The notes under the pieces are model-generated. The model ran no database searches. It was not told where the DNA came from and saw only the letters and a list, made by a program, of their open reading frames with translations. Positions 47,869 through 57,072 of a DNA stretch of 64,000 nt are shown in pieces (the stretch's first letter is position 1; each line of letters starts with the position of its first letter). Made by a program: the position numbers and the translations under genes. The stretch is from Rhodovulum robiginosum (GTDB lineage Bacteria > Pseudomonadota > Alphaproteobacteria > Rhodobacterales > Rhodobacteraceae): NCBI RefSeq assembly GCF_003944755.1, contig NZ_RWGU01000051.1, positions 1 to 64,000 of the forward strand. The letters are read 5' to 3'.

Positions 47869-48698
47869 CCCTCCAGGACCGCGGCGCGGGTGGCGGCATC
47901 GACCTCGGGGCGCTGGCCGAACCAGCGTTCGAAACCGGGCGCGGCCTGATGCAGCAACATGCCCAGCCCGTCGACCACGGTGCATCCGCGTTTTTCGGCC
48001 TCGGCCAGAAGGCCGGTTTTCAACGGGGCGTAGACGATATCGGTGACCACCATGTCGGGTGTCAGCCCGTCGAGGGGGATGCGCAACTCGGGCTTTCCGG
48101 TCATGCCCAGCGAGGTGGTGTTCACCACGGTGGCCGCGCCGTCGATCATGTTGCCCGCCTGCACCCAGTCATAGACCGCGATCTTGGGCCCGAATTCGGT
48201 CCGCAGGGCCTCGGCCCGGGCGCGGGTGCGGTTGGCCAGCCGGATCTCGCGCACGCCAACCTCTATCAGCGACGTGATGATCGCGCGGGCGGCCCCGCCG
48301 GCGCCGAACACCGCGGCCGGCCCGGCCTCGGGTCGCCAGCCGGGGACGCCCTGCCGCAGGTTGGCAATAAACCCGTAGCCGTCGGTGTTGTCCGCGTGCA
48401 GCTTGCCGTCGGAACGGAAGATCAGCGTATTCGCTGCTCCGATCAGCGCCGCGCGGTCGGTGACCAGGTCGGCCAGCCCCAGCACCTTTTCCTTGTGAGG
48501 GATCGTGACGTTGAGCCCGACGAAACCCAGCCGGGGCAGCAACTGCAACGCCTCTTTCAGATCCTCCTGGACCACGTCCATCGGGATGTAATGGCCCTTC
48601 AGCCCGTAGCTCTGTAGCCAATGGCCATGAAGTTTTGGCGATTTCGAATGGGCAACCGGAGAGCCGATGACGCCGGCCAAGGGGATACGATCTGTCAT
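47865..48698 (-). CDS. aroE: Shikimate dehydrogenase (NADP+)
   Basis: 277 residues. AroE reduces 3-dehydroshikimate to shikimate in aromatic amino acid synthesis. Motifs: GVIGSPVAHSKSPKLH, the catalytic Lys in NVTIPHKEKVLG, LHADNTDGYGF with the conserved Asp, and the Rossmann loop VFGAGGAARAII. The C-terminal DGLGMLLHQAAPGFERWFG is also standard. It overlaps maf at the start (48695-48698, ATGA) and coaE at the end. All active-site residues are present. Confidence 0.97.
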   Translation of the reverse strand: MTDRIPLAGVIGSPVAHSKSPKLHGHWLQSYGLKGHYIPMDVVQEDLKEALQLLPRLGFVGLNVTIPHKEKVLGLADLVTDRAALIGAANTLIFRSDGKLHADNTDGYGFIANLRQGVPGWRPEAGPAAVFGAGGAARAIITSLIEVGVREIRLANRTRARAEALRTEFGPKIAVYDWVQAGNMIDGAATVVNTTSLGMTGKPELRIPLDGLTPDMVVTDIVYAPLKTGLLAEAEKRGCTVVDGLGMLLHQAAPGFERWFGQRPEVDAATRAAVLEG

Positions 48699-49294
48699 CG
48701 GGCCAGAACTCCGCGTGTGGTCAGGAAGGTGAGCAGGGGCAAGAGCGGCAGGCCAAGCACCGTAAAGAAATCCCCGTCGATCGCGTTGAACAGGCGCACG
48801 CCTTCTTCCTCCAGCTTGTAGCCTCCGACAGAGTCGCGCACGCTGTTCCAGTTCCGGTCCAGATACTCGTCGAGATAGGTGTCGGAAAAGGGGCGCATGG
48901 TCAATGTGGCCACGCCGACATGGCGCCAGAGCGGCGCACCCTCGTCGAAAACGGCAACGGCCGACAAGAGGCGGTGGGGCCGGCCCCGCAGACGCAGAAG
49001 CTGGGTGCGCGCCTCGTCCCTGGTTTCGGGTTTTGCCAGCACCCTATCGCCCAGGGCCAAGACCTGATCGGCCCCGATCACCAGGGCGTCGGGGCGGCTT
49101 TCGGCAACCCGGCGGGCCTTGAACTCGGCCAGAGCCTCAGCCACCTCGCGCGGGCCGGCGCCATCGTGGGTCATGCCGTCGCGAATGGCGGCTTCGTCAA
49201 CGCGGGCTGGCTGAACGGTGAAAGCGACGCCGGCATTTCGCAGCAGCAGCGCGCGCGCAGCCGATCCAGAAGCGAGGATGATGTCTTGGGCCAT
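48695..49294 (-). CDS. maf: Maf-family nucleoside triphosphate pyrophosphatase
   Basis: 199 residues. Maf proteins hydrolyse non-canonical or excess nucleoside triphosphates and have been linked to septation arrest. The N-terminus has LASGSAARALLLRNAGV; the catalytic segment is VIGADQVLALGDRVLAKPE, then SAVAVFDEG and SVGGYKLEEEGVRLF. I chose the ATG at 49294; a longer frame to 49393 extends into the putative origin and is not homologous. It heads the leftward unit maf-aroE-coaE-dnaQ, whose start faces the AT-rich region. Substrate specificity (dTTP/UTP or other) cannot be told here. Confidence 0.93.
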   Translation of the reverse strand: MAQDIILASGSAARALLLRNAGVAFTVQPARVDEAAIRDGMTHDGAGPREVAEALAEFKARRVAESRPDALVIGADQVLALGDRVLAKPETRDEARTQLLRLRGRPHRLLSAVAVFDEGAPLWRHVGVATLTMRPFSDTYLDEYLDRNWNSVRDSVGGYKLEEEGVRLFNAIDGDFFTVLGLPLLPLLTFLTTRGVLAR

Positions 49295-49703
49295 GTGGGC
49301 GAGCCTGTGGATGAACGAAGGTAACAGCCGGGGACGAACGTGGGAGCGTTCGCCCCGCATCGCGGCTTGGCGAACAACCGCCCGGGTTGTCAAGCATTGC
49401 CCCGGTTTCGTCCCAAGGGGACCAAGTTGTCACGCGATTGTGGATTGCGGCGAAATGCGCGTCTTTGGCCGAAGTTCTCCACACGTTGGCTGAGGCGAAT
49501 ACAGACTTAATTCATTGTAATACATATAAAAATTCTTGGTATGAAATTATTCTGCAAGTTATCTTCAGAATTGTTAACATCGCGTCTGCTGTGCAAAACG
49601 GTCGGGAGGACAGGATAATCCCGGTTTTCCCCAGCCCCTACTGCATCCCCATCTTTTCTTTTCTTTCTTTTTTATTTTAGAAGGGGCCCGACGTTACCGG
49701 AGC
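49295..49703. other. oriC: Probable chromosomal replication origin (oriC)
   Basis: A 409-base gene-free region whose core, about 49495-49580, is strongly A+T-rich in an otherwise very GC-rich window. A pyrimidine-rich tract with T runs follows (about 49651-49680). DnaA-box-like 9-mers: TGTGGATGA (49306-49314) and TTCTCCACA (49475-49483), each one base from TTATCCACA or its complement. TGTGGATTG (49439-49447) and TTATCTTCA (49559-49567) are two bases away. Neighbours maf-aroE-coaE-dnaQ on one side and hemJ-rho-mnmE-mnmG-rsmG-parAB on the other, and parS within 6 kb, match alphaproteobacterial origin context. No perfect DnaA box is present. Confidence 0.65.
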
Positions 49704-50165
49704 ATGGGGCACCCGATGGGCGATCTGCTGGCAAGCATCTATCCTTGGACCAAGTCGCTGCACATCGTTGCTGTGCTGACATGGATGGCGGGGCTGTTCT
49801 ACCTGCCCCGGCTTTTCGTCTATCACACCGAGCGGGTGACGGTAGGCGAGCCCACGGACGAGCTGTTCCAGACCATGGAAATGAAGCTCTTCAAATACAT
49901 CATGAACCCGTCGCTGATCGCCGTGTGGCTGTTCGGGCTGTTGCTGGTCTTTACGCCGGGGCTCGTCGACTGGTGGTCGATCTGGCCCTACACCAAGGGC
50001 GCGGCGATCATCGCGATGACCTGGTTCCATATGTGGCTGGGGATTCGCCGCAAGGAATTCGTTGCCGGAACCAACGCGCGCAGCGGCCGTGCGTTTCGCA
50101 TGATGAACGAAGTGCCGACGATCCTGATGCTGGTGATCGTGTTTTCTGTCGTCTTCAAATTCTGA
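49704..50165 (+). CDS. hemJ: Protoporphyrinogen oxidase HemJ
   Basis: 153 residues with four membrane helices. The helix near residues 18-40 carries the conserved His in KSLHIVAVLTWMAGLFYLPRLFVYH; later blocks include FKYIMNPSLIAVWLFGLLL and WFHMWLGIRRKEFV. HemJ oxidises protoporphyrinogen IX to protoporphyrin IX in bacteria without HemG or HemY oxidase. The start is uncertain: the ATG at 49704 has GGAG only three bases before it, and the ATG at 49716 (then LLASIYPW) is also possible. It is the first gene rightward of the putative origin, followed 116 bases later by rho. Confidence 0.92.
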   Translation: MGHPMGDLLASIYPWTKSLHIVAVLTWMAGLFYLPRLFVYHTERVTVGEPTDELFQTMEMKLFKYIMNPSLIAVWLFGLLLVFTPGLVDWWSIWPYTKGAAIIAMTWFHMWLGIRRKEFVAGTNARSGRAFRMMNEVPTILMLVIVFSVVFKF

Positions 50166-52863: not shown

Positions 52864-52879
52864 TGTTTCACGTGAAACA
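52864..52879. promoter_or_regulatory. parS: parS site 1 (ParB-binding), at the mnmG start
   Basis: TGTTTCACGTGAAACA, a perfect 16-bp palindrome identical to the canonical parS. It begins right after the AGGAG of mnmG and includes the GTG start codon. ParA and ParB are encoded 2.5-4 kb downstream. Confidence 0.93.
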
Positions 52880-54737: not shown

Positions 54738-55354
54738 CCCCCAGCCAGGCCGAGCTGGGGCTTGATGTTTCACGTGAAACATTCGAGCGGCTCGAAATCT
54801 ACGCGGCGCTGCTGCGCAAGTGGAACCGGGCGATCAACCTTGTTTCGCCCGCCTCGCTCGACGCGCTGTGGACGCGGCACATCGCCGATTCCGCCCAGGT
54901 GTTTTCGCTAGCGCCGGAAGGTGCCGAGACCTGGGCCGATCTGGGCAGCGGGGGCGGGTTTCCGGGGATGGTCATTGCCATTCTCGCGGCCGAACTGCGG
55001 CCGTCGCTGGCCGTGACCCTGGTCGAAAGCGACAAGCGCAAGGCGACTTTCCTGCAAGCCGTCGCGCGGGATACCGGGGTCGCGGCCGATATCCGACCCG
55101 CCCGAATCGAAGAGGTTTCGCCGCTGGGCGCAGAGGTGCTGAGCGCCCGCGCGCTGGCGCCTTTGATTGTGCTTTTGGGCTATGCAGAACGGCATCTGGC
55201 GGCAGGCGGAGTGGCCCTGTTCCCAAAAGGCGCACGCCATCGCGGCGAAGTCGCCGCGGCGCTTGCATCCTGGCAGTTCGACGTTCAAACAGTTGCCAGC
55301 CGGACCGAGGCAGACGGCGTTATCCTAAGAATCGGAGGCATTTCCCGTGTCTGA
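54734..55354 (+). CDS. rsmG: 16S rRNA (guanine-527-N7)-methyltransferase RsmG (GidB)
   Basis: 206 residues. It methylates G527 of 16S rRNA; loss gives low-level streptomycin resistance. The N-terminus has [24 protein letters not shown], with Val-Ser-Arg-Glu-Thr encoded by parS 2. The SAM-binding loop is [15 protein letters not shown], followed by [13 protein letters not shown] and the [16 protein letters not shown] motif. The ATG overlaps the mnmG stop in ATGA, and the end overlaps parA by eight bases. Confidence 0.96.
54766..54781. promoter_or_regulatory. parS: parS site 2, inside the rsmG coding sequence
   Basis: A second perfect TGTTTCACGTGAAACA, 1.9 kb from the first, within codons 11-16 of rsmG. 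The palindrome is translated as Val-Ser-Arg-Glu-Thr. Confidence 0.93.
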
Positions 55355-56156
55355 TCCCACGCGCCCGTACGCGCCGAAAATCATCGCTGTGGCCAACCAG
55401 AAAGGCGGGGTCGGCAAGACGACCACCGCCATCAACCTGGGCGCGGCGCTGGTCGATGAGGGTATGACCGTCCTCATCGTCGACATCGACCCGCAGGGCA
55501 ACGCCTCTACCGGGCTCGGGATCGAGGCCGAGCAGCGCACGCGGACAACCTACGACCTGTTGCTGGAGGATGCGCCCCTGTCCGAGGTGATTCGGGCCAC
55601 CAATGTCGACGGCCTGCTGATCGCGCCGGCCACGACCGACCTCAGCTCGGCCGACATTGAAATGGTGGCGAATGAAAAGCGCAGCTATCTGCTGCATGAC
55701 GCACTGCGCCAGCCCGCGATCGACAGCTATGGCATTGATTATATCCTGATCGACTGCCCGCCATCGCTCAGCCTGCTGACGGTGAACGCGATGGTCGCGG
55801 CGCATTCGGTGTTGGTGCCTCTGCAAAGCGAGTTCTTCGCGCTGGAGGGGCTATCGCAACTGATGCTGACGATCCGCGAATTGCGCCAGACTGCGAATCC
55901 GCGTTTGCGGATCGAGGGCGTGGTGCTGACCATGGCCGATTCGCGCAACAAGCTGTCTCAACAGGTGGAACATGATGCACGCGCCTACCTGGGCGAGCTG
56001 GTCTTCGACACGGTGATCCCGCGCAATGTCCGCGTCAGCGAGGCGCCGTCTTTTGCGGTGCCGGTGCTGGAATACGACCCGGCCTCGAAGGGTTCCGCAG
56101 CCTATCGGGCCTTGGCGCGCGAGATGTTGCGCGGCAAGCTGTCGGCAGCGGGATAA
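55347..56156 (+). CDS. parA: Chromosome partitioning ATPase ParA (Soj)
   Basis: 269 residues, beginning at a GTG inside the end of rsmG. The deviant Walker A motif KGGVGKTT lies at residues 19-26 (AVANQKGGVGKTTTAINLG), followed by VDIDPQGNASTGLG and the LIDCPPSLSLLTVNAM Walker B region. ParA forms a DNA-bound gradient that pulls the ParB-parS complexes, moving the newly copied origin. The N-terminal extension is short, so this is a chromosomal type. It is followed 13 bases later by parB. Confidence 0.97.
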   Translation: MSDPTRPYAPKIIAVANQKGGVGKTTTAINLGAALVDEGMTVLIVDIDPQGNASTGLGIEAEQRTRTTYDLLLEDAPLSEVIRATNVDGLLIAPATTDLSSADIEMVANEKRSYLLHDALRQPAIDSYGIDYILIDCPPSLSLLTVNAMVAAHSVLVPLQSEFFALEGLSQLMLTIRELRQTANPRLRIEGVVLTMADSRNKLSQQVEHDARAYLGELVFDTVIPRNVRVSEAPSFAVPVLEYDPASKGSAAYRALAREMLRGKLSAAG

Positions 56157-56169
56157 GCGGAGGCAGAGC

Positions 56170-57072
56170 ATGAACACGAAAAAACCCGAACGCCGTGGCC
56201 TTGGGCGGGGGCTGTCGGCCCTGATGGCCGATGTGAACATCGAGCCCGAGGGCGACGCGCCTGCGCGCAAACCCGACCAGACCCTGCCGCTGGAGCTGCT
56301 GGAGCCGAACCCCGACCAGCCGCGGCGGCAGTTTTCCGACGAGGCACTGGGCGAGCTGGCCGATTCGATCCGCGAAAAGGGGATCATCCAGCCGCTGATC
56401 GTGCGGCCGAGCAAAAAGCGCGAGGGCGCGTTCGAAATCGTGGCGGGCGAGCGGCGCTGGCGCGCCGCGCAACGCGCGCAGTTGCACGATGTGCCGGTGA
56501 TCATCCGCGAGCTTGACGACGTCGAAGTGCTGGAAATCGCAATCATCGAGAACATCCAGCGCGCCGACCTCAACGCGGTGGACGAAGCGACCGGCTATCG
56601 CCAGTTGATGGATCGATTCGGCCATACCCAGGAAAAGGTGGCCGAGGCGCTGGGCAAGAGCCGCAGCCATATCGCCAACTTGCTGCGGCTTCTGCAACTG
56701 CCGGACGAGGTTCAGACCCATCTGCGCGAGGGGCGGCTGTCGGCGGGCCATGCCCGCGCGCTGATCACCAGCGACGACCCGGTTGCACTGGCGCGGCGGG
56801 TGATCGAGGGCGGCCTGTCGGTGCGTGAAACCGAGGCGATGACCCGCAAGCCCACGGCCGAAGTGCCGCGCAAGCCCAAGGCCGTGGCCGAAAAGGACGC
56901 CGACACCCGCGCGCTGGAAGAAGACCTGTCGGCCAATCTCGGGATGACCGTCAGCATCGACCATCGGCCCGGCGGCGAATCGGGCGAGGTGGTGATCCGC
57001 TACCGGACGCTCGATCAGCTCGATACCTTGTGCGGCAAGCTGACGGCCAGTTCGGGCAACATCTTCGAGTAG
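56170..57072 (+). CDS. parB: Chromosome partitioning protein ParB (Spo0J)
   Basis: 300 residues. ParB binds parS and spreads as a CTP-dependent sliding clamp. The ParA-interacting N-terminus RRGLGRGLSALMAD is present. The CTPase motifs are in the Noc/ParB domain: QPRRQFSDEAL, IQPLIVRP and GERRWRAAQRA. The helix-turn-helix has EKVAEALGKSRSHIANLLRLL, and the C-terminal dimer domain (about 255-300) includes MTVSIDHRPGGESGEVVIRYRTLDQLD in pieces. CGGAGG lies upstream. parS sites 1 and 2 lie about 2.4 and 1.4 kb upstream of parA-parB boundary genes. Confidence 0.97.
   Translation: MNTKKPERRGLGRGLSALMADVNIEPEGDAPARKPDQTLPLELLEPNPDQPRRQFSDEALGELADSIREKGIIQPLIVRPSKKREGAFEIVAGERRWRAAQRAQLHDVPVIIRELDDVEVLEIAIIENIQRADLNAVDEATGYRQLMDRFGHTQEKVAEALGKSRSHIANLLRLLQLPDEVQTHLREGRLSAGHARALITSDDPVALARRVIEGGLSVRETEAMTRKPTAEVPRKPKAVAEKDADTRALEEDLSANLGMTVSIDHRPGGESGEVVIRYRTLDQLDTLCGKLTASSGNIFE

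Follow-up and report, generated by a model that had tools for sequence, protein, structure and literature searches.

Chromosomal origins of related bacteria

The origins of 101 closed Rhodobacteraceae genomes were previously predicted using Ori-Finder, and the portions of that report drawn on here give as criteria DnaA boxes, a local GC minimum, a GC-disparity minimum, and nearness to parAB (PMC6699656). The cited part of another study places parAB near ori in almost all of its alphaproteobacterial genomes (PMC8116508), and in an excerpt of PMC6473078, a web database supplied the origin positions for Dinoroseobacter shibae and Rhodobacter capsulatus. A search by title of the open-licence literature returned no experimental origin mapping in Rhodobacteraceae. 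The origin of Caulobacter crescentus, Cori, lies between hemE and COG1806, a ppsR-type gene, in the account excerpted from PMC1914354.

Here, we analyzed a window of 64,000 nucleotides that forms the start of a 501-kb contig (C11) in a 3.71-Mb draft genome of 51 contigs, focusing on the intergenic region between maf and hemJ (the gap). See Table 1 for the coordinates of all features. The gap is very probably the oriC of the main chromosome of this Rhodobacteraceae member, because it lies near the GC-skew switch of its relatives, its box positions are conserved, it is syntenic with the ppsR/hemE gap of outgroups, and parS sites are a few kb away. It has the features listed in the cited portions of PMC6699656, with the disparity minimum seen in relatives only, and our genome, assigned to Rhodobacteraceae by the best named matches of Rho, is probably of the same family as those 101.

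Like Cori, as described in the cited part of PMC1914354, the gap is AT-rich, has several DnaA boxes, and occupies the same place in the gene order. Unlike Cori, it is not between hemE and ppsR: the hemE of our genome is on another contig (C36), and PF03618 (ppsR) was not found in the genome. Also unlike the Cori type, our gap has no CtrA site (TTAA-N7-TTAA) within one mismatch. Among the 41 related gaps, perfect sites occur in 4 (40 shuffles: mean 0.5, highest 2) and sites within one mismatch in 14 (40 shuffles: mean 8.0, highest 16). No GANTC is present between 49000 and 50000.

Many of the related gaps also resemble the basal unwinding system of Bacillus subtilis oriC, as far as it is set out in the excerpted parts of PMC8287927, PMC6669920, and PMC10721633, in having two co-oriented boxes, a short GC-rich spacer, TAC/ATC triplets, and T-rich DNA. 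They differ from that system in their irregular trios, and our own copy differs in its degenerate boxes and in failing the box/trio rule as we coded it. Unlike B. subtilis oriC, our gap is not beside dnaA, which is on contig C14.

Gene order and conservation

The initial annotation had placed a probable origin between maf and hemJ, next to rho, mnmE, mnmG, rsmG, and parAB and within 6 kb of two perfect parS sites, a gene order that it recognized from alphaproteobacterial origins. This gene neighbourhood is confirmed, with maf and hemJ forming a divergent pair around the gap, and maf, rho, mnmE, mnmG, rsmG, and parB all pass NCBIfam cut-offs. The parA product matches ParA-type models only, all below cut-off. 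We took the ATG that ends at 49294 as the maf start; the open frame of maf continues to a TTG at 49393, and the best maf model starts from residue 1 of the ATG start. Both parS sites were recovered, one 3.2 kb and the other 5.1 kb from the gap, and they are the sole sites with two or fewer mismatches in the genome. The relative G003 likewise has two perfect parS sites at +3.2 and +5.1 kb.

Table 1. Features of the candidate origin and its surroundings in the window
Feature	Position	Strand	Basis or remark
maf, left boundary gene	48695..49294	-	NCBIfam model match above cut-off
Candidate oriC, whole maf/hemJ intergenic region	49295..49703	.	409 bp
DnaA-box-like site 1, TCATCCACA, 1 mismatch, adjoins maf	49306..49314	-	genus-alignment column identity 0.91
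DnaA-box-like site 2, CAATCCACA, 2 mismatches	49439..49447	-	column identity 0.80
DnaA-box-like site 3 (central), TTCTCCACA, 1 mismatch	49475..49483	+	column identity 0.86
Most AT-rich 100 bp of window, 71% AT	49498..49597	.	AT content
Degenerate IHF-like site, 2 mismatches	49508..49520	-	near place of perfect site in 8/41 gaps
Two weak box-like sites, TTATCTTCA (2 mismatches) + TTGTTAACA (>2 mismatches)	49559..49579	+	column identity 0.77
Weak DnaA-box-like site, TTTTGCACA, 2 mismatches	49590..49598	-	column identity 0.76
Two abutting box-like 9-mers, TAATCCCGG + TTTTCCCCA	49616..49633	+	column identity 0.84
GC-rich stretch ending in TAC, GCCCCTAC	49634..49641	+	column identity 0.90
Pyrimidine-rich tract, proposed unwinding stretch	49642..49680	+	column identity 0.87 for 49649-49672
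hemJ, right boundary gene	49704..50165	+	127 bits, below curated cut-off 138
parS, no mismatch, at mnmG start	52864..52879	.	motif search
parS, no mismatch, within rsmG	54766..54781	.	motif search
parA (55347-56156) + parB (about 56176-57072)	55347..57072	+	parB start chosen

In translation, the parS site at the mnmG start gives MFHVKH and the one in the 5' part of rsmG gives DVSRETF. Both are inside coding sequence, and therefore protein and DNA are constrained together. At the contig start, positions 1–1000 have 78% GC, the top 1-kb value in the window.

A hemJ match is present in 54 of 61 genomes, and the 30 best-scoring of these 54 loci were examined, some family members having weak hemJ matches. 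The order maf/gap/hemJ is found in 27 of the 30, including all 16 loci of the genus (our own counted), with gaps of ~357–464 bp, and the box positions are conserved across the 16 genus gaps. In L026 and L031, maf and the gap are separated by a ppsR-type gene (PF03618), and in L027 hemE precedes hemJ. We also inspected 20 named Rhodobacteraceae-like loci from the best 80 of a named scan, a sample from which relatives near our own genome may be missing; 14 have maf/gap/hemJ, 5 have maf/gap/rho with no hemJ match, and 1 ends before maf. The third core pattern described below is found in one of the five maf/gap/rho loci (L181). By eye, the box, TAC, and CATCATC are present in L166, and parts of the core only in L170, L174, and L177. 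The locus of a Paracoccaceae MAG (L171) has ~1 kb between hemJ (1507–1956) and rho (3001), which exceeds the other named loci.

Profiles made from the related gaps, with our own left out, each gave one match in 564 kb of our own sequence: 49297–49693 for the 15 genus relatives (E 7e-39) and 49296–49687 for 25 gaps of other genera (E 9.4e-25). The gap lies between divergent genes, and part of this conservation may represent promoter sequence. Among outgroups, hemE precedes hemJ in all eight loci examined, and ppsR lies beyond the gap in the three that reach far enough (Sphingobium L211, Novosphingobium L217, and Marinicaulis L197), with maf beyond ppsR in the Sphingobium locus. The claimed alphaproteobacterial gene order is thus borne out, as the maf/hemJ gap is syntenic with the ppsR/hemE gap of outgroups. 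With no PF03618 match in our genome and hemE on contig C36, the place has therefore been kept and the boundary genes are gone.

AT content and DnaA-box-like sites

Within the gap, the initial annotation had reported the only AT island of such strength in the window, a pyrimidine tract, and four DnaA-box-like 9-mers, all imperfect. The island does stand alone. The window's most AT-rich stretch falls in the gap at 50, 100, 200, and 400 bp, with 71% AT against 55% for the second-best 100 bp, 61.5% against 49% at 200 bp (49483–49682), and 51.5% against 42% at 400 bp (49387–49786). The weakest duplex of the window is likewise in the gap at 50, 80, and 100 bp, at -118.0 kcal/mol per 100 bp vs a window mean of -163.2 (sd 8.2), and the gap therefore has the easily melted AT-rich stretch of an oriC. 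In 464 kb of our own contig (the window and the next 400 kb), it shares the top AT rank at 100 bp and comes third at 200 bp and fifth at 400 bp, the stretches above it being at 91.5–93 kb and, at 400 bp, also at 349.6 kb.

The AT-rich DNA at ~91.4–93.2 kb of the contig (L102:7400–9200), outside the window, extends over 1.5–2 kb with at most 65% AT over 200 bp, and the DNA around it has about 64–68% GC. This stretch may be an insertion, because the matches on either side of it are only 0.3 kb apart in G003.

The tract was found as described, and the boxes are all imperfect as stated, but their count was too low. The gap carries six 9-mers within two mismatches of TTATCCACA, starting at 49306, 49439, and 49590 on the minus strand and at 49475, 49559, and 49625 on the plus strand; two have one mismatch, and none is perfect. 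The window averages 0.39 such sites per 400 bp, with its maximum in the gap. TTGTTAACA is counted as box-like through the alignment only. In the genus alignment, the place of site 3 holds a perfect TTATCCACA in L011, L012, L013, and L015. Perfect copies of TTATCCACA number 7 in our genome and 0 in the window, and the genome has 14 copies of the backward control pattern.

When one mismatch or fewer was allowed, TTATCCACA took the top rank among 1680 letter orders in the genus, other-genus, and own gaps, although such related gaps are not independent. It had 42 matches against a mean of 1.2 in the 16 genus gaps, 32 against 1.1 in 11 other-genus gaps, and 2 against 0.05 in our own gap. At two mismatches, another letter order equals it in our own gap. 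At zero mismatches, it is second in the genus gaps, is reached by 8 orders in other genera, and has no match in our own gap. The gap thus contains a cluster of DnaA boxes beyond chance, with the boxes of our own copy all imperfect. The neighbourhood of dnaA was also considered as a rival origin and rejected, with a top box score there of 1.

GC skew

The initial annotation proposed GC skew as a check. Because our genome is in 51 contigs, whole-chromosome skew is impossible, and we used the skew of relatives. Six fetched relatives have hemJ on a contig >3 Mb, of which G001 and G028 were left out and four were sampled, namely G013, G015, and G003 of the same genus and G018 of the family. The hemJ contigs of these four are 3.56–4.14 Mb, and each relative contributed 20 stretches of 20 kb, spaced at 5% of the chromosome. 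After a split half a chromosome from hemJ, in the orientation of the window, the right half was positive in 9/10 stretches of G015, 9/10 of G003, 6/10 of G013, and 8/10 of G018, and the left half was negative in 9/10, 8/10, 8/10, and 9/10, respectively. Among two-segment fits within 5% of the best one, the origin fell 0–4% of the chromosome from hemJ in G015 and in G003, 1–5% in G013, and 6–10% in G018, with the best terminus at 0.46–0.52 of the chromosome. The check therefore places a skew switch near the gap in all four relatives (0–5% from hemJ in three and 6–10% in one), at a resolution of ~5% of the chromosome, or tens of kb in G003.

G003 is the best hemJ match among 60 relatives searched, at 85% identity. 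Over 400 kb of this genome, the cumulative-skew minimum is 13 kb left of hemJ, and the cumulative skew is almost flat between -70 and 0 kb. TA skew was inconsistent, with best fits 15% (G013), 9% (G015), 11% (G018), and 29% (G003) from hemJ, and the corresponding values for GC+TA skew were 15%, 9%, 1%, and 29%.

On our own contig, 19 of 20 stretches to the right of the window have positive GC skew. Within the window, the skew is still positive from 20 to 49 kb, to the left of the gap, which speaks against an origin there, and the window taken alone has no switch at 49.5 kb. Our own left arm is covered only as far as window base 1, where C11 begins. The unplaced contig C3 holds a block of the G003 left arm and has 4 of 5 stretches positive in the G003-matching orientation. 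Reading our left arm through C3 was dropped, as blocks have moved between G003 and our own genome. Several G003 blocks left of hemJ match the right part of C11 (184–207, 262–275, and 387–396 kb), and segments seem to have changed chromosome arms.

The hemJ-side core

From maf to hemJ, the genus alignment shows box 1, the central box, the AT island, the weak boxes, the abutting boxes, the GC stretch with TAC, and the pyrimidine tract. The abutting TAATCCCGG and TTTTCCCCA align with TAATCCMCA and nnnTCCACA of many relatives, and the GC-TAC stretch is GGCCCTAC in many of them. The duplex at 49635–49684 has -60.3 kcal/mol per 50 bp vs a window mean of -80.8. Column identity averages 0.83 within the listed elements vs 0.61 outside; the P value of 2e-18 for this difference is too good, as the elements were chosen partly from the same alignment. 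Perfect IHF sites occur in the 8 gaps noted in Table 1, always on the minus strand and at positions 190–249 (40 shuffles: mean 1.0, highest 3), and sites within one mismatch in 24 of 41 (40 shuffles: mean 15.1, highest 22).

The hemJ-side core, consisting of the abutting boxes, GC stretch, TAC, and pyrimidine tract, resembles a DnaA-box/DnaA-trio unwinding module, and we liken it to the module described in the cited portions of PMC8287927 and PMC10721633. A coded box/trio rule (a DnaA box, then at least three NAN trios within 16 bp) has no match in our own gap and is satisfied by 26 of 41 gaps (30 shuffles: mean 9.8, highest 14), with a match at the core in 11 of these 26, among the two matches listed. 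A 26-base core pattern was found in 17 of 198 family genomes, once each, our own included, and its backward control in 3 genomes. This pattern was written from the genus alignment, so our own copy fits by construction, and the hemJ-side position was checked for our own match and G031. A looser box-plus-TAC pattern, run with no control, matched the core in 24 of 41 gaps and a single place elsewhere (L015), with no match in our own gap. A third core pattern found our own core and, of 13 loci given, L002 and L181 alone.

Alternative explanations and the site of opening

The gap could instead be solely the divergent promoter region of maf and hemJ, conserved as such, with the origin in another gap within tens of kb. 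The two genes are indeed divergent, skew resolves the origin to tens of kb at best, and the left flank in the window is still positive. However, the weighted box score of the gap is unmatched by any other 400 bp, both in the 464 kb of our own contig (8 vs next 5) and in the 400 kb of G003 that surround hemJ, where the orthologous gap ranks top (8 vs next 6). No place in the sampled stretches of G013, G015, G018, or G003 scores above the gap of the same genome (3 vs 8, 8 vs 17, 10 vs 17, and 7 vs 8). The five named loci with the gap between maf and rho, where all or parts of the core persist with no hemJ match, and the ppsR/hemE counterpart in outgroups also argue against a promoter-only role, which we regard as quite unlikely. 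Several replicons are common in Rhodobacteraceae, and with an assembly in 51 contigs the gap might belong to a plasmid or secondary replicon. We give this almost no credence, as our own contig is 501 kb, six relatives carry the orthologous gap on a 3.56–4.33 Mb contig, and the skew switch was seen in the four of those six that were sampled.

For the gap as oriC, we propose that DnaA would bind the conserved boxes and that IHF would bend the AT island in relatives, perhaps weakly in our own gap. DnaA on the abutting boxes (49616–49633) would extend through the GC stretch to one strand of the TAC and the pyrimidine tract (49639–49680), which would then open and receive the helicase, and ParB at the parS sites would aid separation of the copied origins. 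The first opening may thus be in the tract adjoining hemJ rather than in the most AT-rich island; we infer this site, as our own gap fails the coded rule and a core match is among the two listed in 11 of the 26 passing gaps. Taken together, the chromosome in this family might open at the C/T tract beside hemJ via two abutting boxes, with the AT island as an IHF-type bend; the absence of ppsR and relocation of hemE might have left a compact maf/hemJ origin lacking recognisable CtrA sites in this species; and our own copy might work with weak boxes only. As a whole, this reading is tentative and rather doubtful. At the same origin, the 71%-AT island could itself be the unwinding element, with the pyrimidine tract serving hemJ expression or something else, and we put the chance of this slightly below even. 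The island is the weakest duplex (-118.0 vs -136.1 kcal/mol per 100 bp for 49606–49705). Our own gap fails the coded rule, and because the core match is in under half of the rule-passing gaps, we rated opening at the island up and the combined reading above down. Yet the island has few conserved columns outside the box-like sites, against 0.84–0.90 in the abutting boxes, GC-TAC stretch, and tract, and in relatives it has the IHF-type site inside it.

Such origins are already known in related bacteria, and the addition here is the bases that may open first. The draft genome gains a precise candidate origin, and the 41 related gaps form a set for testing the boxes, the bend site, and the opening site. 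A search by hemE and ppsR landmarks would miss the maf/hemJ origin, since the boundary genes have changed and the place is the same.
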